Of a stretch of DNA of 64,000 bases, positions 10,055 through 24,407 are shown in pieces; within the stretch, counting starts at the first letter, position 1, and each line of letters starts with the position of its first letter. Under the pieces are notes generated by a model. It did no database searches, was not told where the DNA came from, and was given only the letters and a program-made list of their open reading frames with translations. Source of the stretch: Myxococcales bacterium. GTDB taxonomy: Bacteria > Myxococcota > UBA727 > GCA-2721815. The stretch lies in the NCBI GenBank assembly GCA_002721815.1, contig PBLQ01000011.1:124001-188000 (forward strand), read 5' to 3'. The position numbers were made by a program, and so were the translations under genes.

Positions 10055-11422
10055 TCAACCGGGCTGGAAAACAAAGGAGTTCTGAATGGTCACTTCGCCA
10101 TCATCAGGTTTCGGGAAGCGAATCCGCTTCATGGCTGAAACAACGCATTTACCGACGCCGCCTCCGACTGAGTCTTTGACTGCGGATGCGTCGCTAACTT
10201 TGCCTCGGCTATTAATGGTAAACTCAATGACGATTTTACCCTTCAGCTTGGAGTTGGATTTCAAAGCCGTCTCGTAGCATTGTTGGAACATTTTTCCACG
10301 ACGTTGCAGGATACGCTTCACTGCCTTGGAATCAATTTCGCCGTCCAGCGGCTCAACATCAGCGGCACTCACACGACCGCTCACCTTGGTTCGCTTCTTA
10401 GCTTTGGTTTTGACTTTACCACCGCCACTGGTCCCCAAAGAGCCAATGTCTGCAGCACTACCGCCGCCGCTACCGCCGCCTTTTCGAGCGATCCCGCTAC
10501 CGGAAGCCGCGATGCCCACACCAGCGGTACCCGCTAAGGCGTCGCTTAGATCGCCACCGATGGCAGCACCATCGCTGAACACATTGGCCAAAGCGCCGTC
10601 GCCTTCACCAACAGCACCAATCATGGCCAGCAGGCCCTTGCTGGCGATTTGGTTTCGAACGTCTTGCCGCTTTGCTTCCGCTGCCTTGGCTTGCTTGGCC
10701 GCATCTTTCAAATTTTTGGGAGGCTCTTTCTCTGCAGGCTTTTCCGCAGGCTTTTCCTCAGGGGCAGGTTTGTCTGCTGGCTTGTCAGAGTCTTTGTCCT
10801 CGTCTTTTTTCTCTTCTTCAGGCTCGGGCTCATCCTCCTCTTCCACAGGAGGTGGCGCGGCCACCTTTGCGATCCACTGCTTCAGCTCCTCTTGAGAGGG
10901 CGGCGGCGGTGGGTCGACGCTGACTACCGTGATACCTGCACCGGTATGAAAAATGAACGAACCTATAAAACTCAGCATCAATATTGGTTCAAATCGTTTC
11001 ATCCAACCATCCTTTATGTCGTCGGGCAGCTCTTTTTGAGCCACCTTCGACGGCTTATCCACAAAGTGGAACAAAATCGTCGTATCTTTCGAAAGCTGCA
11101 CTTGGCCTTTAGATGAATCGTCTAAAGGGTAGTGAGAGCGGTCGTTCTCTGCTTTCGATAGATTTTGAGCTTTTAACGCTGCAAAATCTAAGTTCTGATT
11201 TTTTACGGATACGTGACCGTTCATATCCGCATTGTAAATTAAGTTGTACTGGGAGCCAGCCAACTCAAAAACAGTCCAGGTTGCGGGTGCGCCATGGTCA
11301 CGAACTTGAAAAGTATTCTTTTCATCAGTCCCCACAGTGATCGTTTCGCGCGCCATCATGACACGTTCTTCAACGATCTTGCTCTGGTGGGTTACCGTTA
11401 TTCGTAGGACCTTCTTCATCAT
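10055..11422 (-). CDS. TonB-like envelope-spanning protein, GltG/PglI type
   Basis: About 455 residues. The N-terminal ~115 residues look like a divergent forkhead-associated (FHA) type beta domain in the cytoplasm. One membrane helix follows near residues 130-155, then a periplasmic Pro/Glu/Lys-rich rod (PAPEEKPAEKPAEK), a Gly-rich linker, and a C-terminal domain of about 100 residues with the AgmX/PglI pattern (KFQQCYE-like 'MFQQCYETALK', 'GKIVIEFTINSRGKV', 'SAMKRIRFP'). Such proteins link the inner-membrane motor to the outer membrane in Myxococcus gliding. The ATG at 11422 is preferred (AAGG eight bases upstream) over a GTG at 11437. It is the last gene of the operon, just after the TolQ/TolR-like genes. 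The gltG assignment is inference from architecture and order. Confidence 0.8.
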   Translation of the reverse strand: MMKKVLRITVTHQSKIVEERVMMARETITVGTDEKNTFQVRDHGAPATWTVFELAGSQYNLIYNADMNGHVSVKNQNLDFAALKAQNLSKAENDRSHYPLDDSSKGQVQLSKDTTILFHFVDKPSKVAQKELPDDIKDGWMKRFEPILMLSFIGSFIFHTGAGITVVSVDPPPPPSQEELKQWIAKVAAPPPVEEEDEPEPEEEKKDEDKDSDKPADKPAPEEKPAEKPAEKEPPKNLKDAAKQAKAAEAKRQDVRNQIASKGLLAMIGAVGEGDGALANVFSDGAAIGGDLSDALAGTAGVGIAASGSGIARKGGGSGGGSAADIGSLGTSGGGKVKTKAKKRTKVSGRVSAADVEPLDGEIDSKAVKRILQRRGKMFQQCYETALKSNSKLKGKIVIEFTINSRGKVSDASAVKDSVGGGVGKCVVSAMKRIRFPKPDDGEVTIQNSFVFQPG

Positions 11423-11450
11423 TCCCTCAACCTTCACGCCATCGCGTGAA

Positions 11451-12107
11451 TCAGCTGTCCATCCTTACGATTGCAAACTTGTATTCACCAAACCCAGCCT
11501 CACCACAGGTGATGAGAAGTTGGGTTAACAAACTGTAGGGCGTGGCCTTATCGGCGATAATCACCACCTTACCGTTAAAGCCGCCTTCTTCCGTAATTGA
11601 TGCCGTTAGCTCTTGCGCTTCCTTTACTTCCTTGAGCTTGGTACGCAGCTTTTTGATCACAAACTTTCGTTCCAGCTCAGCCTCAGGAATCGCGAAGGCG
11701 CTGGGGTTTTTGGTCGTTGGCCCCATACTCAGAACTGGCATATCATCCACAACAATCTGTGGGGTATTTGCCGACTGCGTTTTTTGTCCATTTACGAACC
11801 CTTTGCGAATGGGACCCGTCACCAAGACGACCGCTGCCTCTTCTGTTTTCTCTTTAGAAGTGGACATGGGCAAATCTGTCGCAGGGTCGGACACATCAAT
11901 GGGGCTCGTCGCGAAACTTTTGATGAGATACACCAAAATAATGGTCACAATGTCCATGAGCGAGTTCAGCGCTGGTGGTTCATTCTTTTCCCCGTCGCCC
12001 TTTTTCGCACGTCGTTTTCGACCTTGATCTGGCTGGCGAAGAAGCTCTTCGGGCCAACCCTCGTAGGGGCTGCTGCCGTCTCCAATGCTTACGTTTTCTG
12101 ATGCCAT
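11451..12107 (-). CDS. TolR/ExbD-like motor subunit with conserved Asp (AglS/AglQ type)
   Basis: 218 residues: a charged cytoplasmic N-terminus of about 44 residues, one membrane helix (about 46-66) and a periplasmic domain. The helix contains 'LNSLMDIVTIILVYLIKSFA'; Asp52 (codon 11952-11954) sits where TolR, ExbD and MotB carry the proton-accepting aspartate. With a TolQ-like partner it would form a proton-driven motor. The periplasmic part ends with the usual alpha/beta ExbD fold ('GKVVIIADKATPYSLL'). It is the second of two TolR-like genes in tandem, 31 bases apart, and lies 28 bases before the TonB-like gene. Confidence 0.85.
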   Translation of the reverse strand: MASENVSIGDGSSPYEGWPEELLRQPDQGRKRRAKKGDGEKNEPPALNSLMDIVTIILVYLIKSFATSPIDVSDPATDLPMSTSKEKTEEAAVVLVTGPIRKGFVNGQKTQSANTPQIVVDDMPVLSMGPTTKNPSAFAIPEAELERKFVIKKLRTKLKEVKEAQELTASITEEGGFNGKVVIIADKATPYSLLTQLLITCGEAGFGEYKFAIVRMDS

Positions 12108-12138: not shown

Positions 12139-12684
12139 TTAACCGACAATCCCGGCCGAGAAGGCCACCGCGGGAAACAACTCTTTTCCATCTGCCGATT
12201 CGCGAGCCGAGTCCATGGTGTGCACCACGCGCTCATAAATGACTTCAGGGTCAGCAGTCATGATGACGTTGTCTTCCAATGGGAAATTTTTCTTAATCTC
12301 AAGCAACTTTTTGTTCAGTGCTTCGTAATCGTAATCCATTTCCCCTTTGTCATTTGGTTTCATGGGGATGAGGGCTTGCCCTGGGCGGGGTGGATTTGCA
12401 TTGTCCCCAGTGAGCGTGGCTCCGGAAGCTGCGAGATTGTAACCTTTACGGGTAATAAAAATCGTCAGGTTCAGCTTGGGCTTCTTCTCCTCTTCTGGTT
12501 TTGACGCAGAAGAACCACCGCCTCCGCCCAATTGCGGTGCTTGAACAGAAATCAAGCCCAGTGGGACGTTTACGGTCATTGAGAGCAAGCAAGCGATAAG
12601 AGCAAAGTTCAGGTTCATCATCGGAACCAAATCCGGTTCTTCGACGCCTGCATCCTCTCCTCTTGGTTTTCTTCGGTTTGCCAT
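12139..12684 (-). CDS. TolR/ExbD-like motor subunit lacking the conserved Asp
   Basis: 181 residues with a short cytoplasmic N-terminus, one membrane helix (about 20-45) and a periplasmic ExbD-like domain with a Gly/Ser-rich linker near 54-59. The helix reads 'PDLVPMMNLNFALIACLL'. Aligned by the Pro that precedes the helix, the position of the proton-carrying Asp of ExbD ('PFID') is Asn24 here (codon 12613-12615, AAC). The neighbouring TolR-like gene keeps the Asp, so the pair may form an asymmetric heterodimer. Good ribosome site (TTGGAGAT). Lies between the TolQ-like gene and the second TolR-like gene, the order of aglR-aglQ-aglS in Myxococcus as I recall it. Confidence 0.85.
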   Translation of the reverse strand: MANRRKPRGEDAGVEEPDLVPMMNLNFALIACLLSMTVNVPLGLISVQAPQLGGGGGSSASKPEEEKKPKLNLTIFITRKGYNLAASGATLTGDNANPPRPGQALIPMKPNDKGEMDYDYEALNKKLLEIKKNFPLEDNVIMTADPEVIYERVVHTMDSARESADGKELFPAVAFSAGIVG

Positions 12685-12788: not shown

Positions 12789-13421
12789 TTACTCGCCTTT
12801 ACCGCGGGCATACAGCAAGTTTTCTAAACGCACGCTGTAGTAGTCGATCTCGTTGGTGATCTTCTTGGTGATCCCAGTCAAGGTCATGAAAATTAGAATC
12901 GTTGGAATCGCAACCATCAGACCGAAAGCAGTGGTGTTCATGGCGACACCAATAGCAGCAGACAGCAGCGCTGATTTTTGATCGGCAGGTGCTTTCGCCA
13001 CAACGGTAAACGCTTCGATGAGGCCCATAACCGTACCGAGCAAACCCAGCAACGTTGCCAAAGAACCCATGCCACCCAAAGCGCCGGTACGCTTTTGCAA
13101 CAAAGGCATCACTTGAAGATTGGCTTCTTCGATGGCGCTTTGAATCTCGGCCTCGCCTTTGTTGGCGCGAGTTAGACCGGCTTTAACGACGACGGCCAAC
13201 GCAGCATTTGGCGCAGCGTTACAGAGCTTTACCGCACGATCGATGTTATTGGCATTCACCAATTTTTCGACCTGCGCCATAAAGTTGTTACCGTCAATAT
13301 TGTATTTAAAGAAAAGAAAGATAACGCGCTCGATCGCGATGGCAGCCACCATAAAGGAGACGCATCCCACCGGGATCATCCACACACCACCTTCAACAAA
13401 AAACTGTGCAATTTTGGCCAT
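12789..13421 (-). CDS. TolQ/ExbB/MotA-family proton channel protein (AglR type)
   Basis: 210 residues with three membrane helices (about 14-33, 118-140 and 160-182) and the family core 'LATLLGLLGTVMGLIEAF', followed by 'AIGVAMNTTAFGLMVAIPTI'. Five copies of such a subunit surround two TolR-like subunits and form a proton channel. Ribosome site AAGGAG lies eight bases before the ATG. Followed by two TolR-like genes and the TonB-like gene, all on the same strand. Context makes a gliding-type motor more likely than a TonB/ExbBD uptake motor or a Tol-Pal system: no tolB, pal or tolA is near. Confidence 0.88.
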   Translation of the reverse strand: MAKIAQFFVEGGVWMIPVGCVSFMVAAIAIERVIFLFFKYNIDGNNFMAQVEKLVNANNIDRAVKLCNAAPNAALAVVVKAGLTRANKGEAEIQSAIEEANLQVMPLLQKRTGALGGMGSLATLLGLLGTVMGLIEAFTVVAKAPADQKSALLSAAIGVAMNTTAFGLMVAIPTILIFMTLTGITKKITNEIDYYSVRLENLLYARGKGE

Positions 13422-13857: not shown

Positions 13858-15543
13858 TTACTTGTCCTCATCTTCATCTTCATCTTCGAAACTTTCGTCT
13901 TCCGATCCGGGCCCCGCCTCTTCTTCTTGCGGCTCTTCCGTCCCCGGTTCTACCCCGGGCTCACCTTCTTCATCGGCTCCGGGCTCGCCTTCTTCATCGG
14001 CTCCGGGCTCGCCTTCTTCATCGGTTCCGGGCTCGCCTTCTTCATCGGCTCCGGGCTCGCCTTCTTCATCGGCTCCGGGCTCGCCTTCTTCATCGGTTGC
14101 GGGCTCGCCTTCGCCCTCAGAGGCCTCAGCAGCCTCTTCTGCGGCTTTTCGCTCTTCTTCTTCAAGACGCTCGGCCTCTTCAATTAAACGCCGTCTTTCG
14201 GCCCTCTCACGCTTTTTTGTCTCCTTACGGATCCGTTTTTTGACGGTTTTCTGAAACTCGGGGAGCCTCTCATTATATTTGTTCACGGGTCGTTCAGCAT
14301 CTGCATACAGATCGAAGCGTTCTTGGGCTTTGGTGAGCCTCTCTAAATAATCCATTCCAGGAATTTCATTGTCCATGTACATCAAGCCGAGGTTGTAGTG
14401 CACATCCAGGAGCCCGGTATCGAGCTCCAAGGCTTTCATGTAGTAGTCTTCGGCTTCTTCGTACCGTTTACTTGCGCGATACGCATTGGCCAAATGTAGC
14501 GCAGTCTCGGCTTTTTGAGGTGTGAGTGCCACCGCAGCCTCCAAATGCCGAACGGCCGCCTGGAAACGGTCTGCACGTAGTAATAACAAACCGTAGTTTT
14601 CCTGAGCTTCGTCCAAGTCAGGTCGCAGTCTCGACGCCTTTTCGTAGGCGAGCTCTGCCTGGGTGTAATCATCGAACTGCAAAAAGGTGTGGCCCAGCCA
14701 AAGTTGCAGCAAAGCGTTTCCCGGCTCCAACACCAGCGCATTCTCCAATGCGAATTTGGCAGTTTCGTATTTCTCCTGGGCGAAGAACATTCGTGCCATC
14801 AGGTACATGGCCGGAATATTTCTCTCATCATACGCGATCGCTTGTTTGCATTCGCGTTCTAATCTTTTGAAATCTTGGTCAATGAACGCTTTGGTTGCTG
14901 CTGCTACGTGAGGACCTGCTCGATCGCCTTGCTTGTCCAGCGCCTCTTCCAGGATGAGCGCCGATTGGTCGGGACGCCCTTGTCTGTGATACATGTACAC
15001 CAAGTTGATCAAACAAGGGCCGTAATCGGGTCGTTCTCCCAGGCATTGTAAGTAGATTTGCTCGGCACGTTCATCATTTTTTGCGCGCTCAGCGGACACT
15101 GCGGCGTTGTAATAGGCGGCGTAGAAGTAGGTGGTCTCACCAGCCGCAGCCAAGAAAGCCTCGATGGCCTGCTCAGGGTTTTCCACCGCGATTTTGACTG
15201 CTTCATCAAATTTGTCACGCGCGGGTCCAGGCTGTGGAAGCGGATTTTCATCATCGATACCATCCGCTGAGCGTTTGGCGACCTCTCCCTCGGGACCAGG
15301 AGGCGCTTCGGGCGCCGCAGCTGCTTCTTCCTCGACTGTTTTCTCTTCCTCGGCCTTCGCCTCTTCCTCTACAGTCTCCTCCTCGGGCTTTTCTTCTTCG
15401 ACGACTGGCTCATCGGCCACATTCGGGGTCTCTATTGGCGCGGATTCGGTCTTCTGTTGATGCGCACAACCCGACGCCAACCCTAAGACCAGGGTCTGTG
15501 CCACGATAAAATATAAAATCTGAGTATCGCGTGCGCGCAACAT
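13858..15543 (-). CDS. TPR lipoprotein with acidic repeat tail (GltE/AglT-like)
   Basis: 561 residues. A lipoprotein signal ends in 'LASGC' near residue 26, then an acidic Glu-rich spacer (to ~95), then TPR repeats over about 100-400 with typical motifs ('YYNAAVSAERAKNDERAEQI', 'LHLANAYRASKRYEEAEDYY'). A charged helix (about 400-470) follows, and the tail has seven units of the type EGEPGADE and ends DEDEDEDK. Myxococcus GltE (AglT) is also a TPR outer-membrane lipoprotein of the gliding complex. The start overlaps the preceding gene's stop by one base (TAATG), and the next gene starts right after its own stop. Assignment to GltE is inferred from architecture and order. Confidence 0.78.
   Translation of the reverse strand: MLRARDTQILYFIVAQTLVLGLASGCAHQQKTESAPIETPNVADEPVVEEEKPEEETVEEEAKAEEEKTVEEEAAAAPEAPPGPEGEVAKRSADGIDDENPLPQPGPARDKFDEAVKIAVENPEQAIEAFLAAAGETTYFYAAYYNAAVSAERAKNDERAEQIYLQCLGERPDYGPCLINLVYMYHRQGRPDQSALILEEALDKQGDRAGPHVAAATKAFIDQDFKRLERECKQAIAYDERNIPAMYLMARMFFAQEKYETAKFALENALVLEPGNALLQLWLGHTFLQFDDYTQAELAYEKASRLRPDLDEAQENYGLLLLRADRFQAAVRHLEAAVALTPQKAETALHLANAYRASKRYEEAEDYYMKALELDTGLLDVHYNLGLMYMDNEIPGMDYLERLTKAQERFDLYADAERPVNKYNERLPEFQKTVKKRIRKETKKRERAERRRLIEEAERLEEEERKAAEEAAEASEGEGEPATDEEGEPGADEEGEPGADEEGEPGTDEEGEPGADEEGEPGADEEGEPGVEPGTEEPQEEEAGPGSEDESFEDEDEDEDK
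13957..14100 (-). repeat. Six tandem 24-bp units encoding EGEPGADE-type repeats
   Basis: Six head-to-tail 24-base units, nearly identical (single-base differences such as A/G and C/T), followed by a degenerate seventh. They lie in frame at the C-terminal tail of the TPR lipoprotein, and each unit adds eight residues. Because 24 is a multiple of three, loss or gain of units would change tail length but not the frame. Confidence 0.9.
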
Positions 15544-18500
15544 TACTTATCCTCGTCCTCATCGTCAAAAGGGTCTTCCAGCTCACCTGGCGCCGATTCA
15601 TCCACGGGTTCTGGTTCGCTGTCCACAGGCGTTTCTGGCTCAGCTGCGACTTCTGCTTCTTCTCCGGCCTCTTCAGTAGGCGCTTCGGTTTCAGAGGTTT
15701 CTTCATTGCCATCGCCTAGCCCTTCTTCGCCAGGACCGTCCTCTTCACCATCGCCTGGCCCCTCCGCACCTTCGCTGGCCTCCTCTTCCATGTCCTCTTC
15801 TTCGGTTTCAGCCACGCTCATCACTTCGCGCAAGTATGGTGCCCCACCATCCATGCGAATGAAATCTTGTGCGTACACATTGCCTGAGGTGGGTCGAGAC
15901 AGCGGGGTATTATCGATTGGAAAGTCGTCTGGGCGCAGGCGGTTGAGCGCCTCCAGCGTTTTCTGTTGCCATTCGTTTTTCAAGCTCAACTCTTGGGCTT
16001 TGTCATTGGCCGTTCGGTAGGCTTCCACGGCTTTGTCTTCAATCGTATACGCCCGGTCTTCCAACATCAGCGCATATTCTTCACAAGCAATCTCATCAAT
16101 TCTGGCGATGTCTTTCGGACAGGGCGCATCAAAAATCGAATTTTGCAAATTGTCGTAAAGAGAGCCAATTCTGAATAACGACGCCAAAGACCAATCCGCC
16201 TGCCGATAGGTAGAAATGATGTTTTCGTACACCTTTTGGACTTCGAGTAACTTTTCGGTCTTCTCTTTAAGTTGGCCACCTTGTTTTTTAGCGGAGGTAC
16301 CCGTCATTCCCGTTTTGGCATACTCGGCATAAATAAATTCAGAGAGATAGAAATCCGCTTTGGCAGCGTAATAAGTTGCCGCTGGCGAGTTCGGTGCCTG
16401 TTCGTGAAACTCTTTGGCCTTATTGAGTGCCGCCTCGACGTCCTTGCGCGCCGCTTTTAATTTTTTGGCCCGTTTTTTCACCTTTTTAGCGGTCTTGATT
16501 TTATCGTATCGCTCCAAATGAATATCAGCAATACGCACGTACGCCTCAACAACCTTTGGAATCTGCTCTTCTTTGCTTTTGTAGCGTTTAATGAATTCCT
16601 GCAGGGTTTTGATTTGAGCACGCGTATCTTTTCGCTTGGCATGGATGAGCGCCGAACGGAAGAACACATCTGGCGCCTCTTGCTTATCGGGGAACATATC
16701 TGCATACCGCTCGAACTCTTTCGCCGCTTTTTTGTATTTCTGTTGGCCTTCTAAAGCTAAAGCGGCATTGAGCTGTGCATCTGCTCTTTTGTCTGATTCG
16801 GGATATTTGCCCACCAGCGCCAAGTAGGTGCGAACGGCCTTTTCAAAGTTAAAGGCTTGCTCAGACTTACTCGCCACCCGGAACATAGATTCTGGTGCAA
16901 ACGTAGATTTCGGATATTCCTTATAGAGTCTCTCATACAGGTCGGCTGCGCGAAGCGGTCTTCTTGCCTTTTCTAAGGACAAAGCCGCATTGTACATCAT
17001 GGCATCTGCGAACTCGCGATCGGGGTCTTCTGCTAGCAGTTCGAGGTACCGGTTCGCGCCTTCTTCAAGAAGATTGATACCTTCGGTAATCCGCCCATCC
17101 GCCAAAGCGATGTCGCCTTTTTCGAGAATTCCTTTGGCAATTTGGAACTTAGCCCCACCTTCGATCTTTGCGAATTCTTCCATCTCGCCACCGACCATTT
17201 GCTCTTTAAACCGCGATGCATAAGCCGCTGCTTTGGTCCAGTCTTGTTTGGCCAACAAATAATCAAGGATGAGATTCGCCGCGAATTTTGCCGCTTCATG
17301 CTGCTGGTAAAGGTCGATGATACGTTCGAACCGTTTTACAGCGTCATCGAAATACCCATAGGCAAATTTCATCGAAGCCGCTTTGTAGGAGAACGCAGGC
17401 GCCATTTCGTGCTCTTCAGCCTTGAGTAGAAACTTATCCACCGAATCGATGAAAATGGTTTGTGCCTTTGGAATCGTTTCAGGTTCAGCATTCACATCAG
17501 GTCGCTCGGTGCTAAACACATCTTTAATGACGAGTTCACCCGCTTCGACCATCCGTTCCATAATTTTCTCTTGCGCGTAAATGGCATTGAGTGCGGCCTC
17601 ACCCCTGTACTTGGTTCCTTGGGTGGAATCTCGGGTTTTCATATAGGCGACGACGGCTTTGTCAAAGTTCATCGAATAATAATAGGCCTCTGCCAAATAG
17701 AACGTTAGTTCATAGGCATCTTTGTCGTGAGGATACCGGTCGAGATAAGCCTCGTAGGCCTGGGCCGCCAAGGTGTAGGACTGGACTCCCCGTTCCATAT
17801 CACCCCCATCAACAAATTTGATGGCCTGCTGGTGGTAGAAGATCGCAGCCTTGTACAAAGACGCTCTTGCCAATTTACCAGCTTCCCGCAACGCCTTGAT
17901 GTTCATGCGATTGGCTTCTGCCCACGGGGTTCTTTCGGAATACAAGGCCACCAGTTTATCACGCTCTCTTGAAGCATCGTCGAACATGCGCTCTCGTTCA
18001 TAGGCGCTGATGATTAAATCTTGTAACTTCGGCGCGTCTTTGTGCATGGGCTCCATGTCGATCGCATAACGGAGGGCTTCGATGGCCCCTTTGCTTTTTG
18101 AGCCTTTGAACAAAATATCACCGAGTCGTGCAAACACTTCACGCTCGTAAGGTTTCTCGCCAAGTTTCGACATGTACTCCTTGGCAAATCTAACGTACCC
18201 CAGACCCGTTCCGATATCCTCGTCGTCCATTTCCTCCTCTTCGGTGGGCATGTCATTGTAGCCAGGACGGTTCCAGTTGTCATCTTGGAAGGAAATCGCA
18301 ATGTACTGTAGAGCTTCTTCTTCCATCACAGAGCCACCACCGCCGCCGGCCTTGGCTTTTTGTGCGTAAGAATAATCTAATAACTCAACGAAGTTTTCGA
18401 CGGCTTCGTCGAACCGGTTCACGAGGTAATAGGTCCAAGCCAAGTTATAGAGGGCCTTGTCATAGAAACGACTTTCTTTTTTCGGAGCCACCAAAAGAAA

Positions 18501-19550
18501 TGCAGCGATGGCTTTATCCCATATTTCCTCTTGGAAGTAATTATCGCCGACCCGGAATGCCACCTCATCGAAGAACCGTGAATCCGGATAACGCTCGGTG
18601 ATCACCTCCCAAGACTTTATCCCTTCTTGACCTTCACCTTGTGCTTGCAGAGCGTAGCCTAACAGGTAGTAAGCACCGTCGATAAAACGGTATTCGGGAA
18701 AATCTTTCACCAACCAGCGGTACAGTTCGATGGTTCTGTCAAACCGTTGCTCAGGCTCTTCAGGCTCTTCGGGCAACCGACCTTCGGAGAACTCGTTATA
18801 GGCAATGCGATAATCCTTAAGCTTTTCCTGATAAACTTCGTCAGCGCGCTCAAATTGCAGCTCAGCGAGACGGAAAATAGCGTCAGGGGTAAAATCTTTG
18901 CTATCTGGGTGGCGTTGCAGAAAGCGCTCAAACGCAGTGATAGCGTCCATACGCGCTTGTCGCTCTTGCACCAGCAATGGGTTGATGGACCCATCGTATT
19001 TTCCTTCAATCTTCTTTTTGCGTTCTTTATAGCGACGCTCGGCTAACTGCCGAATTTCCTCGCGCACTGAGCCCGCCTCAGCCTCAAAATGTTTTACGGT
19101 TTTTTCTAAGGTTTCGTAGACCGCTTGTGCGGCCCCCACCTGGACCCCGCTTAGCCGGTTTTTAATCACTTGTTTCGGCTTGTTGGCGGCAGGCTTTTCT
19201 TCTTCGGAGACGTCCGAAGTGTTATCTACTTCTTCGGAAGACTCGGGCTCGGCTCCCGGCTCGGCAACCTCTTCATCGCCATCTTCACCATCGTCAGCGA
19301 CTTCGCCGTCTTCGGCGACTTCTTCTTCAACATCTTCGACCGTTTCTTCCTCTAGAGATTCCTCGTCGTCCATGTCGTCCATGTCGTCTTCGAAATAATC
19401 TTCGTCGAAATCGTCCCCAAAGGCCTCTTCCTCTTCCGAGTTGGTGTCGACTTCAGGCTCTATGTCTTGGGCGTGAACGGACGATCCCGCCACCAAAAAG
19501 GCGAATGCCAAGGCGCGCAACAAACAGATTGAAGACAGGAGGCGTATCAT
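15543..19550 (-). CDS. Very large periplasmic TPR protein with acidic ends (GltD/AgmU-like)
   Basis: 1335 residues. A signal peptide ends near 'SSVHA' (residue 27). An acidic stretch rich in Glu/Asp occupies about 30-120. TPR-like repeats then run almost continuously to about residue 1230 ('YLLGYALQAQGEGQEGIKSW', 'FRVASKSEQAFNFEKAVRTY', 'NAALALEGQQKYKKAAKEFE'). A second acidic tail ends DDEDEDK. The ATG overlaps the previous stop by four bases. Myxococcus GltD (AgmU) is a similarly large TPR protein that spans the periplasm and precedes gltE, as here. It may act as a load-bearing rod or scaffold in the envelope machine. Confidence 0.78.
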   Translation of the reverse strand: MIRLLSSICLLRALAFAFLVAGSSVHAQDIEPEVDTNSEEEEAFGDDFDEDYFEDDMDDMDDEESLEEETVEDVEEEVAEDGEVADDGEDGDEEVAEPGAEPESSEEVDNTSDVSEEEKPAANKPKQVIKNRLSGVQVGAAQAVYETLEKTVKHFEAEAGSVREEIRQLAERRYKERKKKIEGKYDGSINPLLVQERQARMDAITAFERFLQRHPDSKDFTPDAIFRLAELQFERADEVYQEKLKDYRIAYNEFSEGRLPEEPEEPEQRFDRTIELYRWLVKDFPEYRFIDGAYYLLGYALQAQGEGQEGIKSWEVITERYPDSRFFDEVAFRVGDNYFQEEIWDKAIAAFLLVAPKKESRFYDKALYNLAWTYYLVNRFDEAVENFVELLDYSYAQKAKAGGGGGSVMEEEALQYIAISFQDDNWNRPGYNDMPTEEEEMDDEDIGTGLGYVRFAKEYMSKLGEKPYEREVFARLGDILFKGSKSKGAIEALRYAIDMEPMHKDAPKLQDLIISAYERERMFDDASRERDKLVALYSERTPWAEANRMNIKALREAGKLARASLYKAAIFYHQQAIKFVDGGDMERGVQSYTLAAQAYEAYLDRYPHDKDAYELTFYLAEAYYYSMNFDKAVVAYMKTRDSTQGTKYRGEAALNAIYAQEKIMERMVEAGELVIKDVFSTERPDVNAEPETIPKAQTIFIDSVDKFLLKAEEHEMAPAFSYKAASMKFAYGYFDDAVKRFERIIDLYQQHEAAKFAANLILDYLLAKQDWTKAAAYASRFKEQMVGGEMEEFAKIEGGAKFQIAKGILEKGDIALADGRITEGINLLEEGANRYLELLAEDPDREFADAMMYNAALSLEKARRPLRAADLYERLYKEYPKSTFAPESMFRVASKSEQAFNFEKAVRTYLALVGKYPESDKRADAQLNAALALEGQQKYKKAAKEFERYADMFPDKQEAPDVFFRSALIHAKRKDTRAQIKTLQEFIKRYKSKEEQIPKVVEAYVRIADIHLERYDKIKTAKKVKKRAKKLKAARKDVEAALNKAKEFHEQAPNSPAATYYAAKADFYLSEFIYAEYAKTGMTGTSAKKQGGQLKEKTEKLLEVQKVYENIISTYRQADWSLASLFRIGSLYDNLQNSIFDAPCPKDIARIDEIACEEYALMLEDRAYTIEDKAVEAYRTANDKAQELSLKNEWQQKTLEALNRLRPDDFPIDNTPLSRPTSGNVYAQDFIRMDGGAPYLREVMSVAETEEEDMEEEASEGAEGPGDGEEDGPGEEGLGDGNEETSETEAPTEEAGEEAEVAAEPETPVDSEPEPVDESAPGELEDPFDDEDEDK

Positions 19551-22372
19551 TGTACTTCGTCCCCCTGCAGATCCATGTATATCTGATTTAGATTCGACAA
19601 CTCTTCGGATTTTGCTTGTTGCAGTTTGCCAATCTCGCGGGTGTGCACCTGCTTTTTCTGAAAAGAGGTGTCGGCCAAACCAATATCGGCTCTGACGATA
19701 ACATCATCAAAATCATCAATCACGTGCCCCAAGGCCATCTGCACGGCCGCTTGCGCGGTATCACTGGCTTGATCACTGATGGTGGCCACTTCCTTGCGAT
19801 ATTTGGCCATTTTGCGTTTCTCTTTGTTGACGATAGACCGCATGGTTTTTATCTGCTTGGAAACAGCGGAACTCAGGCGTTTTTGAAGTTTCCGATTTCG
19901 CTTCTTCAGCTTGCGGACTTTTTCTCGCATGCGCCTTACCGCCCGGTAACCCGTTGTTTCACTACCCGATTTCTCGAGTTTCGCCAGCAGTTTGGTTTCT
20001 TTCGCCACAGCCCGCTCGTATGCTTTTTTGATCGTTTCTTTGCTGGCGCTGCCAACTGAGGACATGACGAGTTCTTCTCTGGCTTCATCGAGCTGGTCAC
20101 GATAGGCAATGATTTGACCATCGTATTGCTCCACCATTTGACGAAGGGAAGACAACCGCTTTCTTAGAATCTTCAGATCCTCCTGCGTTCTCTTGCGGAT
20201 AAAGCTCGAATCCGTGAGCAGTTGGTCAAGTGCCCTCAACTGGGCTTTGGCATCCTTGATGGCCAAGGAGACCTCATGCAGCGAGTTATCAAGACGAGAA
20301 ATATATTTTTCGGTCTGCGCTTTATTCTTTTTGATGCCCGAGCCGAGGTTATCTATGAGCGCAAGCTTGTTTTCCAACGCCTCGCGTTCTTGACGCAGTT
20401 TTTCCAGCTTTTTTAGGTCTTTGTTGGAGATGTTAAGCGCCACACCCTGCGAGTAGTTCCCGTCAAAGCGAATCCCCGGTCTTTTCTCAAATGAAGTGGT
20501 GAAATCTCCACGTTTGAAAGCCTCGATCACCACTTTTGACTCCTGTCCCCCATTGGAAACAAAGGCCAGTTGGTCTTTCATGGAAAAGCGATAACTGTTG
20601 ACGTAATCGAAGAGGCCACCTGAACCCTCAAAATGGAGCGCAACGCTGAGACGATGGGAGCCCACCGAAAGTGGTCCGGATATGAGCAAAGTCCCTTCCT
20701 CACCCTTACCCAAGTCTTCGAGAGGCGTCTCGATCTCGATGGCTTTACCATCCAATAAGAACTCCGCTTTGGTGAGATGATAGGCTTCACCCAAGCCGTT
20801 CTTATACGAAAGCACCACTTTGCCGCCTGTCCCCATCCCGCCGGTGAAGGTTTCGGTCATCAGGGATAACTTGGCTTTTTCGAGCGCTAAGAGTCTTTGC
20901 TCTATTTCTCGAGCGCGCAAAACGCCATCGCGAAGCGTGACAAAAAACTCTTCAGGGTTGTCTCGGGTTAAAATACGCTCTAACTTCTCGACCAACTCCG
21001 CGCTGGACTTCATTTGTTCCTGGCTGATTTTGATATCCCGAAAAGTAGACAAAACGTGCGACACCTCGTCTTGCTCTGAGGTCCAGTTCGCCGCCAATGG
21101 GGGCAGCATGCTTCCTGTGGCCAATCCCCCCTGCTGCACCGCGATAATATCGTCGAGTAACCGTTTTGGATCTACGGCCTCTTTTGAAAGCTTTTGCAAC
21201 GCTTCGTAGGTTGGCTCGTAGATCTCAATGACCTTACGAAACATTTCTTCCGCTTGGTCGAATTCGCCTGTCTGCATTCTGAGATTACCCATCAGCACAT
21301 ACGCATCGGGCGTGCGTCGGCTGTCCGACTCCAAATCCACCAGCATGCGCAGATTTTCTAACGCCTTTTTGTACTGGGCATTGATGAGTCGTTCTCGTTC
21401 TTTCATGGGCATTTCAGCTACTTTTTCATCAATTTCCATGAGCTGACCGCGACGAACGTAGACCCAGGTCACCTCGTAGAGCATCTCTGTAAAGAAATCG
21501 GAATCGAAACTGATGAACTGGTACGCGTTGATGGCTTCATCCAAATCATCTTGGTCGAAATACAAACGTCCGAGCGCCAGATGGGCCAACTCGATCACTT
21601 GTTGGTCAGTTTTGTTCACGGCCTTTGCGTCGGCGATTTCTCTAAAAAGATTCAAAGAACGATCCGCATTCTCGGCACGAACCGCGGCCGCACCTCTGAT
21701 GTATTTGCTACGCAGATAAAAATCCGATGACCGAGGGATTTTATTGAGTTCCTCAACCCCTTCGTCATCTCTTTGGGCCACAAACAGCGTACGACCACGC
21801 TCATATCTCACTTGATCAGGTATTCGACCGCCAATCTTCTTTTCGTAAATGCGATAGAATTTGTTGATGGTTTTGGGTTTATTGACCTTGACCCCAATGG
21901 CGATCGCCCGTGATGCAGCGTGGTGAAGATAGGTGGTATCATCTTCCTTGAGCATCTTTTTGAAGTAATGAAGTGCCGTCGTGTAGTTATTCAGCTGGTA
22001 AAGAGACTCAGCCAACAGATAGAGCGCGAATGCACGCTTGCCACTCTTCCGCAGCTTCTTAGAGCCAATGATGCTGTAAATGGCCAAACTGCATTTTTCA
22101 AAGTCTTTGATCTGAAAAGCTTCTTTTGCCAGGCGAAGGTATTGACGTACTTTGGCAGGCCGGGTTGCATCGGGGATTTCTTGATATTCCTCTTCAAGCC
22201 GGTGCATCGCCCCTTCCAGAAAAGTCACTTCTTCCGTTAGGTTATTAAGGATTTCGGCGGATCGCGCGTGTGCAGAGGTAGGAACGCCCATCAACAAGGC
22301 GCAAGTCACCACCAATGTCGTGCCCAACACAGATAAAAAGGATGGCCTTTTTATGTCGTGCGTTGTCCGCAT
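19547..22372 (-). CDS. Large periplasmic protein: TPR region, beta module and coiled coil
   Basis: About 941 residues. Signal peptide (about 15-38, 'PTSAHA'). TPR-like helices run over ~70-400. A beta-rich module follows at ~505-640 ('SVGSHRLSVALHFEGSGGLF', 'GDFTTSFEKRPGIRFDG'). A long coiled coil lies at ~650-880, rich in Lys/Arg/Leu heptads. The beta module is clearly shared with the 308-residue protein encoded by the next gene upstream. The ATG at 22372 (AAGGAG eight bases upstream) is preferred over the adjacent TTG at 22375. GltC of Myxococcus is a periplasmic TPR protein and could be the counterpart, but the coiled coil makes that uncertain. It most likely links envelope layers. Confidence 0.72.
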   Translation of the reverse strand: MRTTHDIKRPSFLSVLGTTLVVTCALLMGVPTSAHARSAEILNNLTEEVTFLEGAMHRLEEEYQEIPDATRPAKVRQYLRLAKEAFQIKDFEKCSLAIYSIIGSKKLRKSGKRAFALYLLAESLYQLNNYTTALHYFKKMLKEDDTTYLHHAASRAIAIGVKVNKPKTINKFYRIYEKKIGGRIPDQVRYERGRTLFVAQRDDEGVEELNKIPRSSDFYLRSKYIRGAAAVRAENADRSLNLFREIADAKAVNKTDQQVIELAHLALGRLYFDQDDLDEAINAYQFISFDSDFFTEMLYEVTWVYVRRGQLMEIDEKVAEMPMKERERLINAQYKKALENLRMLVDLESDSRRTPDAYVLMGNLRMQTGEFDQAEEMFRKVIEIYEPTYEALQKLSKEAVDPKRLLDDIIAVQQGGLATGSMLPPLAANWTSEQDEVSHVLSTFRDIKISQEQMKSSAELVEKLERILTRDNPEEFFVTLRDGVLRAREIEQRLLALEKAKLSLMTETFTGGMGTGGKVVLSYKNGLGEAYHLTKAEFLLDGKAIEIETPLEDLGKGEEGTLLISGPLSVGSHRLSVALHFEGSGGLFDYVNSYRFSMKDQLAFVSNGGQESKVVIEAFKRGDFTTSFEKRPGIRFDGNYSQGVALNISNKDLKKLEKLRQEREALENKLALIDNLGSGIKKNKAQTEKYISRLDNSLHEVSLAIKDAKAQLRALDQLLTDSSFIRKRTQEDLKILRKRLSSLRQMVEQYDGQIIAYRDQLDEAREELVMSSVGSASKETIKKAYERAVAKETKLLAKLEKSGSETTGYRAVRRMREKVRKLKKRNRKLQKRLSSAVSKQIKTMRSIVNKEKRKMAKYRKEVATISDQASDTAQAAVQMALGHVIDDFDDVIVRADIGLADTSFQKKQVHTREIGKLQQAKSEELSNLNQIYMDLQGDEVQ

Positions 22373-22384
22373 CAATGAAACTCC

Positions 22385-23311
22385 TTAGGGGACCACAATG
22401 CCCTGGTCGAGGTCATCTTCAACCCGGTCATCAAGCACTTCAGTGTCCATGCGTATGGCGGGTCTTTCCAGGAAGTTGGTGGTGAAATCACCTTGCTCAA
22501 AACCAACCACTTTGTTGGTGGTGATTTTGCCTTGCTCTGTGGTGAAAGTGAATGAATCCTTGAGCTGGAAGTTGTAGCCCTCCAGATATGAGAAGAGGCC
22601 AGAACCCGAACCGCGGTATACCAAACTGACGGTTAAAGTGTGGGTGCCCTCTACGATGGGGCCGTCGAAAATGATGATTTCGCCTTCGTTTTGGAATCGT
22701 TCCCCAGACTCGTCGGTATCTTGATGTAAGGGCATGCCATCCAAAAAGAAGTGGCGTTGTACCAACCTGAAACCAGAGCCCATCTGATTCTCATGCACCA
22801 AAAGTAGTTTGGCACTGGTGCTTAAGCCGCCCGTCACTTGTTCGGTGAGCATCATCAACTTGGCTTTGGAGCGAAAGATACTTTCTTTCAGTTCGTTCAC
22901 TTTTTCTTCGAGACCACGAATTTTTGCCCGGTAACTGGCGTCTGCTTCTTTCATCTCGCGCATGGCTTTTTCGGCATCTTCCGGAGACTGCTCTTGGGGC
23001 GCTGCCCCTTCTTGTGTCGCTGCGGGCGCCGTGTCGGGCGTGGCCGCTGCCTCCCCTTCCGCAGGCGCTGCCTCCGTGGATTCTGCAGGTGCACCTTCTT
23101 GGGCCGCAGGGGCCTCATCCGTTGCCTTGGCAGGCTCTTGCCCTTCGGCTGCAGGCACTTCTTCAGCTGGCTTTTCTGCTTCGACCGCCGGTGTTTCGGT
23201 TTCAGCCGCGGTGTCTTGAGCGTAACTCCAAGAACCGGCTGTCAAACAGGCGCCAAGCACCAAGCAGCACAGTACCGGGTTTGGGTATCGGTTTTTCTTT
23301 GGCATCGTCAT
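22385..23311 (-). CDS. Secreted Ala/Pro/Glu-rich protein with gliding-operon beta module
   Basis: 308 residues. Signal peptide (about 10-31, 'SWSYAQD'), then an 80-residue Ala-Glu-Pro-rich spacer, a short coiled coil (about 112-155) and a beta-rich module at ~152-289 ('EGTHTLTVSLVYRGSGSGLF', 'GDFTTNFLERPAIRMD') homologous to the one in the next gene. The Ala/Pro-rich spacer can draw false matches to dihydrolipoamide acetyltransferase; no lipoyl or catalytic domain is present. It starts one base after the mglA stop, which ties it tightly to the polarity genes. Function unknown; probably a periplasmic partner of the larger module protein. Confidence 0.75.
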   Translation of the reverse strand: MTMPKKNRYPNPVLCCLVLGACLTAGSWSYAQDTAAETETPAVEAEKPAEEVPAAEGQEPAKATDEAPAAQEGAPAESTEAAPAEGEAAATPDTAPAATQEGAAPQEQSPEDAEKAMREMKEADASYRAKIRGLEEKVNELKESIFRSKAKLMMLTEQVTGGLSTSAKLLLVHENQMGSGFRLVQRHFFLDGMPLHQDTDESGERFQNEGEIIIFDGPIVEGTHTLTVSLVYRGSGSGLFSYLEGYNFQLKDSFTFTTEQGKITTNKVVGFEQGDFTTNFLERPAIRMDTEVLDDRVEDDLDQGIVVP

Positions 23312-23312
23312 A

Positions 23313-23903
23313 TTACTTCGCCCCTTTTCGCAGTTCCTGTAGAATCTGTTTCGCTACGCATTTGAGCGTGGGAAAAACCCCTTCTCCATTGGTAGCCGTG
23401 GCAGAAAACTCAGGTGCGCCTGAAGTATTGAGCATTTTGCTCAGTTGCTCAACAGGTAAAACATCGGGCAGGTCCCTTTTGTTGTACTGGAGAACGAAGG
23501 GCAAACGCCCCAAGCTGTACCCCTGCTCTTCTAAGTTTTCTACAAGATTTTTCATGGATTCCTGATTTGCTTCTGCTCGATCTTTTTGAGAATCGGCCAC
23601 AAAAATTACACCGTCAACGCCCTTCAATATCAGTTTTCGTGACGCATCGTAAAAAACCTGCCCAGGAACGGTGTAAAGGTGAAATCTCGCCTTGAAGCCA
23701 CGAATTTCGCCCAGCGACAAAGGCAAGAAATCAAAGAACAACGTCCGGTCAGTTTCGGTGGCCAATGAAATCATTTTGCCTTTGATACCCGGACTGGTCT
23801 TCTGATAAATATGGTTTAAATTCGAGGTCTTACCGCACAGGCCCGGCCCGTAGTACACGATTTTGCAGTTAATCTCTTTGGATGAATAGTTAATGAAAGA
23901 CAT
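23313..23903 (-). CDS. mglA: Ras-like polarity GTPase MglA
   Basis: 196 residues and near-identical in plan to Myxococcus MglA: opening '[20 protein letters not shown]', P-loop GPGLCGKT (residues 19-26), switch region '[13 protein letters not shown]', G3 motif TVPGQVFY (Thr in place of the Ras Asp, as in MglA), and G4 motif NKRDL. GTP-bound MglA marks the leading pole and docks on the motility machines; MglB stimulates its GTPase. It lies 18 bases after mglB and 1 base before the first structural gene of the operon, so switch and machine would be expressed together. Among proteins in this window this is one of the surest identifications. Confidence 0.96.
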
Positions 23904-23921: not shown

Positions 23922-24407
23922 TTAGGAGTGCGAGAACAACGATTCAATATCGTCATCGGTGATTTCAGCGAATGGCATGGCGTTTTCTTGGTTTTCATGC
24001 GCTTTATCTTTCGCCGTTTGGAGCAAATTGACGATTTCCTGAGCAGATTTGCGAACCCGCAATCGAACCAAACCAAGGGAGGAACGCTCGTCGAAAATCA
24101 CCAACAGAATGGCTTCGGCCGGTAACACCGAGATGTGCAGGTTGGCCTTTTCACCCTCGTGAAAAATCTGAGTAAACTCCTTTTCATTCATTAACTTCGC
24201 CATGCCGCTGGTGGCCGCAATATTCCCCGCCGTCAAAGACGCCAAACTGGTGGTGTCCAGGTCGGATGCGTCACCTGCAGTGGCTAAAACTTGTCCATTG
24301 GTATCCACTAGGAACACCACCATGGCGTTGGCATCTTCTACCAATCGCTCGCAGGCGTCTTTAATCATTTTGCTTTCTGCTTGGTACAGAATGAAATGCG
24401 AATGCAT
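23922..24407 (-). CDS. mglB: Roadblock/LC7 GTPase-activating protein MglB
   Basis: 161 residues of the roadblock/LC7 family. The stretches 'DANAMVVFLVDTNGQVLATA', 'DTTSLASLTAGNIAA' and 'SSLGLVRLRVRKS', and the acidic tail 'PFAEITDDDIESLF', match MglB of Myxococcus point by point. MglB dimers bind MglA and accelerate GTP hydrolysis at the lagging pole. It is the first gene of the run, 145 bases after recR. A GGGAAG ribosome site precedes the ATG, and a short inverted repeat (CCCAT...ATGGG) lies upstream. A promoter is expected in the recR-mglB gap but could not be fixed by eye. Confidence 0.95.
   Translation of the reverse strand: MHSHFILYQAESKMIKDACERLVEDANAMVVFLVDTNGQVLATAGDASDLDTTSLASLTAGNIAATSGMAKLMNEKEFTQIFHEGEKANLHISVLPAEAILLVIFDERSSLGLVRLRVRKSAQEIVNLLQTAKDKAHENQENAMPFAEITDDDIESLFSHS

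Follow-up and report, generated by a model that had tools for sequence, protein, structure and literature searches.

A beta module shared by P308 and a GltC-like protein in an mglBA-linked Glt operon of a Myxococcales bacterium

The window, that is, the whole stretch of 64,000 nucleotides analysed here, carries on its minus strand an operon with the gene order mglB-mglA-P308-gltC-gltD-gltE-aglR-aglQ-aglS-gltG. From mglA to gltE, neighbouring genes either overlap or are separated by no more than about 10 bases, and 9 bases lie between those for P308 and the GltC-like protein. Among bacterial polarity switches, that of MglA and MglB has been studied best. The genes of the operon, together with the evidence used to name them, are as follows:

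23922..24407, minus strand: mglB, Roadblock GAP (Robl_LC7, E=7.5e-14; NCBIfam MglB family match below cut-off)
23313..23903, minus strand: mglA, Ras-like GTPase (Arf/Gtr1 Pfam and small_GTP matches; adjoins mglB; conserved synteny)
22385..23311, minus strand: P308, exported protein of 308 aa (open reading frame; layout of orthologues; AlphaFold2; signal peptide by inspection)
19547..22375, minus strand: GltC-like protein, 942 aa (NCBIfam GltC at 65 bits and E=5.5e-18, short of the curated cut-off; TPR Pfam matches; AlphaFold2)
15543..19550, minus strand: gltD-like TPR protein, 1335 aa (TPR/YbgF matches; conserved order; named by gene order, PMC3169522)
13858..15543, minus strand: gltE-like TPR lipoprotein, 561 aa (NCBIfam GltE 39.5 bits, below cut-off; TPR)
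12789..13421, minus strand: aglR-like MotA/ExbB channel (PF01618, E=1.3e-22)
12139..12684, minus strand: aglQ-like ExbD/TolR protein (PF02472, E=4.2e-8)
11451..12107, minus strand: aglS-like ExbD/TolR protein (PF02472, E=8.6e-9)
10055..11437, minus strand: gltG-like protein, AgmX/PglI domain at the C-terminus (NCBIfam GltG below cut-off at 115 bits; NF033768 78.6 bits, cut-off 40)

The motor set consists of one TolQ-like and two TolR-like genes, with PF01618 and both PF02472 matches above their cut-offs. The NCBIfam matches of GltC, GltE and GltG all fall below the equivalog cut-offs, which for GltC and GltE indicates paralogues rather than the gliding equivalogs. The GltG-like protein (10055-11437) has an AgmX/PglI tail but gave no Pfam match to FHA, a domain that the GltG of the second Glt cluster in this genome does carry. 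In the tail of GltE, a 24-bp tandem repeat of 6.6 copies (13955-14112) encodes GEPGADEE repeats.

P308 consists of a signal peptide, a linker rich in Ala, Pro and Glu (residues ~32-108), a helix (110-160), a beta module and a short tail. Its orthologues share a layout of signal peptide, variable Ala/Pro-rich linker, short helix and module. LGAC near residue 22 had suggested that P308 is a lipoprotein, a reading given up since the signal peptides of the orthologues are of the ordinary A-x-A type and lack this cysteine. The GltC-like protein, which measures 942 aa from a TTG start or 941 aa from the following ATG, consists of a signal peptide, a TPR region, an inserted beta module and a long coiled coil.

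The first-pass annotation had placed a shared module of ~140 residues in these two proteins, at 20456-22858 (the union of the two segments, minus strand), and the comparison confirms both segments at those positions. BLASTP aligns P308 with the GltC-like protein over ~140 residues (93.6 bits, E=3e-25), and the module scores 269 by Smith-Waterman, whereas 1000 shuffles average 32.5 and never exceed 60. Identity is 36% overall at the protein level. Both motif patterns described earlier were found, as HTLTVSLVYRGSGSGLFSYLEGYNFQLKDSFTF and GDFTTNFLERPAIRMD in P308 and as HRLSVALHFEGSGGLFDYVNSYRFSMKDQLAF and GDFTTSFEKRPGIRFD in GltC. The homologous extent runs over P308 ~149-289 and GltC ~500-638, and KAKL..LTE..TGG, which opens the shared part at residue 149 of P308 and 500 of GltC, lies slightly before the start first proposed. 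The two segments do not match different families; a single profile recovers both. Built with both window copies among its rows, this profile found P308 at 1.9e-72 and GltC at 8.3e-45 in a genome-wide search and no third copy in the genome, while a profile made only from the P308-type modules of relatives recovered the GltC copy at 7e-31. The features that define the module are listed below:

22445..22867, minus strand: native module of P308, residues 149-289 (BLASTP, Smith-Waterman, profile, AlphaFold2)
20462..20878, minus strand: GltC copy of the module, homologous over residues 500-638 (BLASTP, Smith-Waterman, profiles)
20441..20845, minus strand: net insertion in GltC, residues 511-645, missing from 87 of 87 other GltCs (alignments)

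The earlier description of the segment as a beta module is borne out by the AlphaFold2 model of P308, in which the helix at 110-160 is followed by an eight-strand, possibly transthyretin-like beta-sandwich, with strands at 167-294 and pLDDT mostly above 90. In the model of GltC the strands of the insert follow in an order matching P308, between helices 479-512 and 651-721, at a pLDDT of only 34-65. The structures that Foldseek places closest to the P308 model are exclusively transthyretin-like or prealbumin-like beta-sandwiches (e.g., 4gpv and 1ttc), with a best E of 1.2e-3 and none below 0.001, TM-scores of at most ~0.47 (normalised to the target) or ~0.2 (to the query) and rmsd values mostly of 5-8 Å. 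As judged from the model, this likeness would indicate at most a fold class, not a family. Searches of Pfam (loose thresholds, 49 members), NCBIfam and PDB sequences gave only coiled-coil or chance matches, in keeping with the initial impression that the module resembles no known domain, and the public family libraries that were searched do not contain the beta-sandwich. Kinship with PEGA/carboxypeptidase-regulatory domains was suspected from one OmpA fusion protein (locus L052, PEGA E=0.0015). This match lay in a different stretch of L052, none of the modules matched PEGA, and the identity was abandoned.

P308 is the native carrier of the module and is spread across Myxococcota. It was matched in 79 of 97 relatives and at 311 loci in named genomes. 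Among the best 80 of these 311, on which the locus counts rest, GltC is the next gene after P308 in 76 of the 78 that extend far enough to show it, and MglA immediately precedes P308 in 36 of 63. No family model exists for P308, a conserved gene that often comes right after mglA. Across genomes without P308, the presence of GltC paralogues confounds a comparison of how the two genes co-occur. Plasmid searches gave no matches. At four loci of one family (L059-L062) a second P308-like paralogue occurs, with an AglR/TolQ-like motor gene within a few kb in L059 and L062. Four loci of another family of the same order (L050, L051, L064 and L065; genomes of 1.3-1.8 Mb, with other members of the family at 0.3-1.6 Mb) have a shortened operon with a short GltC and a P308 that often carries two modules; mglBA gave no match in these four loci. 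Two records, labelled Comamonas sp. KCTC 72670 and Candidatus Hydrogenedens and probably misnamed or contaminated, also contain Myxococcota-like operons.

The module of GltC has a different distribution. Aligned with 87 other GltCs, the window protein shows a sharp-edged insertion at residues 511-645: the columns are occupied in 87 of 87 sequences up to residue 509, in none at 513-526, in at most one up to 645 and in at least 86 from 652 onwards. The single other GltC that fills part of the gap does so with unrelated residues, and the module profile matches the window GltC alone. The same insertion had been seen in an earlier alignment with 21 orthologues. In the AlphaFold2 model it sits between the helix at 479-512 and the coiled coil that begins at 651. 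No GltC with the module other than that of the window was found in the named loci (best 80 of 311), among the matches listed from 195 genomes of the phylum, or in a profile search of 58 relatives. The module had also been sought in the GltC of Myxococcus, where it was not found, and the mglBA-linked GltC paralogue of Myxococcaceae is without it. Since, among the GltCs compared, only that of the window has the module, the sharing belongs to this lineage and not to the machine in general. A lineage-specific insertion is therefore a well-supported reading of the alignments; the insertion itself rests on a single genome, compared with a set that covers other families of the same order and none of the same family.

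A draft genome of 74 contigs, with no same-family genome in the comparison set, raises the question of an assembly or binning artefact. The insert is in frame, shares 52% nucleotide identity with the module of P308, has a GC content of 0.51 against 0.48-0.49 and has no other source in the genome. A misjoin would not produce an insert that is in frame, diverged, host-like in GC and without another genomic source, and misassembly is considered extremely improbable. The DNA-level divergence of the two copies and the host-like GC content point instead to an old insertion event.

The module tree bears on where the copy came from. With long-branch rows omitted, the GltC module clusters with those of P308s from its own order (support 100/99) and, more weakly, beside its own P308 (97/68); support is lower when these rows are kept. 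Features shared at the level of the order, such as KD and G[DN]FTT, agree with this grouping. Together with the homology and the insertion alignment, the tree supports the proposal of a duplicated domain within one operon, and duplication with insertion is well supported. The branch of the GltC copy is long (3.06), and this length, together with the restriction of the insert to one lineage, would suit a tolerated passenger, inserted by chance at a permissive helix junction and without new function. A passenger would, however, be expected to lose its conserved residues and reading frame, whereas the insert keeps an intact frame and 31 of the 46 positions at which the family shows 90% conservation or more, despite ~36% identity. 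A passenger is accordingly regarded as improbable; the retention makes the insert look like a maintained domain and is what selection on a folded domain would be expected to leave.

The preferred reading, to which roughly even chances are given, is that P308 is a periplasmic Glt component whose sandwich was copied into GltC as a structural or docking module. P308 would belong to the mglBA-linked Glt core machine as a conserved component in the periplasm, made up of a signal peptide, a flexible linker, a coiled-coil helix and the sandwich. In the lineage of the window, a copy of the P308 sandwich would have entered the neighbouring GltC-like scaffold where two helices meet, and would have stayed folded there. 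The module may act as a docking or oligomerisation unit that joins P308 to the periplasmic scaffold (GltC/GltD/GltE), and the copy in GltC would supply the scaffold with a P308-type contact in cis. P308 itself is retained, so the event is a duplication and not a classical fusion of the kind that argues strongly for interaction; the domain transplant hints that P308 and GltC work together. Taken with the near-invariant adjacency of the two genes, it makes plausible the first-pass suggestion that the two proteins bind each other or a common partner, and it points to GltC as a likely partner of P308.

The module also occurs in other architectures. Three Myxococcaceae loci (L052, L054 and L055) encode proteins of 350-460 aa with an N-terminal module followed by an OmpA domain (PF00691). 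Between the P308 gene and gltC at another locus (L043:6391-8979, minus strand) lies a gene for an 862-aa exported protein with five tandem modules, and a two-module protein occurs at a further locus (L044). On the evidence of the OmpA fusions and tandem arrays, the module acts as a mobile structural element in exported proteins. These arrays, together with the position of both window copies after a helix, also suit a homotypic oligomerisation domain, with P308 and the GltC insert pairing like-to-like beside coiled coils. Transthyretin-like folds often pair edge to edge, which counts for this reading; it is nevertheless rated quite unlikely. The OmpA fusions, in turn, suggest that the module could be a cell-wall or outer-membrane contact domain, anchoring P308, and here also GltC, to the envelope and not to a Glt protein. 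However, in OmpA proteins peptidoglycan is already bound by PF00691, so that this task need not fall to the module, and P308 has no barrel and no lipobox common to its orthologues. An envelope contact is possible but on the unlikely side, and docking to the periplasmic scaffold is kept as the preferred function.

The same genome holds a separate gliding-type cluster (L188, G000:C37:50000-69900), with CglE above its cut-off, two OMP_myx_plus barrels, a GltG with FHA, GltE, GltD and a GltC of 529 aa. This shorter GltC is closer to the gliding GltC than that of the window and is without the module. No beta-barrel gene was seen in the window operon, in contrast to the CglE and two barrels of the gliding-type cluster, although this absence is judged only from the operon neighbourhood. 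Under the envelope reading, the module would replace, in a barrel-less operon, the role that GltA and GltB have toward GltC in the gliding machine, where GltC is soluble and periplasmic and contacts both directly (PMC4488436). The window protein resembles the gliding GltC/AgnA (NF033756) in being a TPR protein with a signal peptide and distant sequence similarity, but at 65 bits against a curated cut-off of 450 it is a GltC-like paralogue only.

The window operon is an mglBA-linked Glt core machine that corresponds to the G4 cluster of M. xanthus (MXAN_1922 region, locus L104), in which mglB-mglA-P308-gltC-gltD-gltE are collinear with the window. The genes of this locus were equated with MXAN_1924/1923/1922 by gene order and the published locus tags, and the mglBA pair beside them is presumably MXAN_1925/1926. 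No mention of the expected tags MXAN_1923 and MXAN_1924 was found in the literature searched. Unlike the window, the G4 clusters of Myxococcaceae were not found to contain aglRQS, and the G4 GltC of M. xanthus (809 aa) is without the module. A polar mutation of G4 gltD (MXAN_1922) had no effect on motility in M. xanthus, and the function of the cluster was called unknown (PMC3169522). A widespread, unannotated component, P308, is here assigned to this mglBA-linked Glt cluster, whose function was so reported in 2011.

The Agl-Glt core complex (AglRQS with GltC, D, E and G; Luciano et al. 2011, PMC3169522) has the same gene set as the window operon, here in one operon, with a TolQ/R-like motor, GltC/D/E TPR proteins and a GltG with an AgmX/PglI tail. 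Its gammaproteobacterial form has an 'additional gene' (PMC3169522). The window operon differs in that it is preceded by mglBA and P308, in that barrel genes were not seen, and in that its GltC carries the inserted module and ends in a long coiled coil. A bolder and rather unlikely reading of this comparison is that the mglBA-linked Glt system would be a third Agl-Glt envelope machine, besides those of gliding and of Nfs sporulation, in which P308 and not the GltA/GltB barrels links GltC to the envelope; the lineage of the window would then have hard-wired this contact by placing a P308 domain in GltC.
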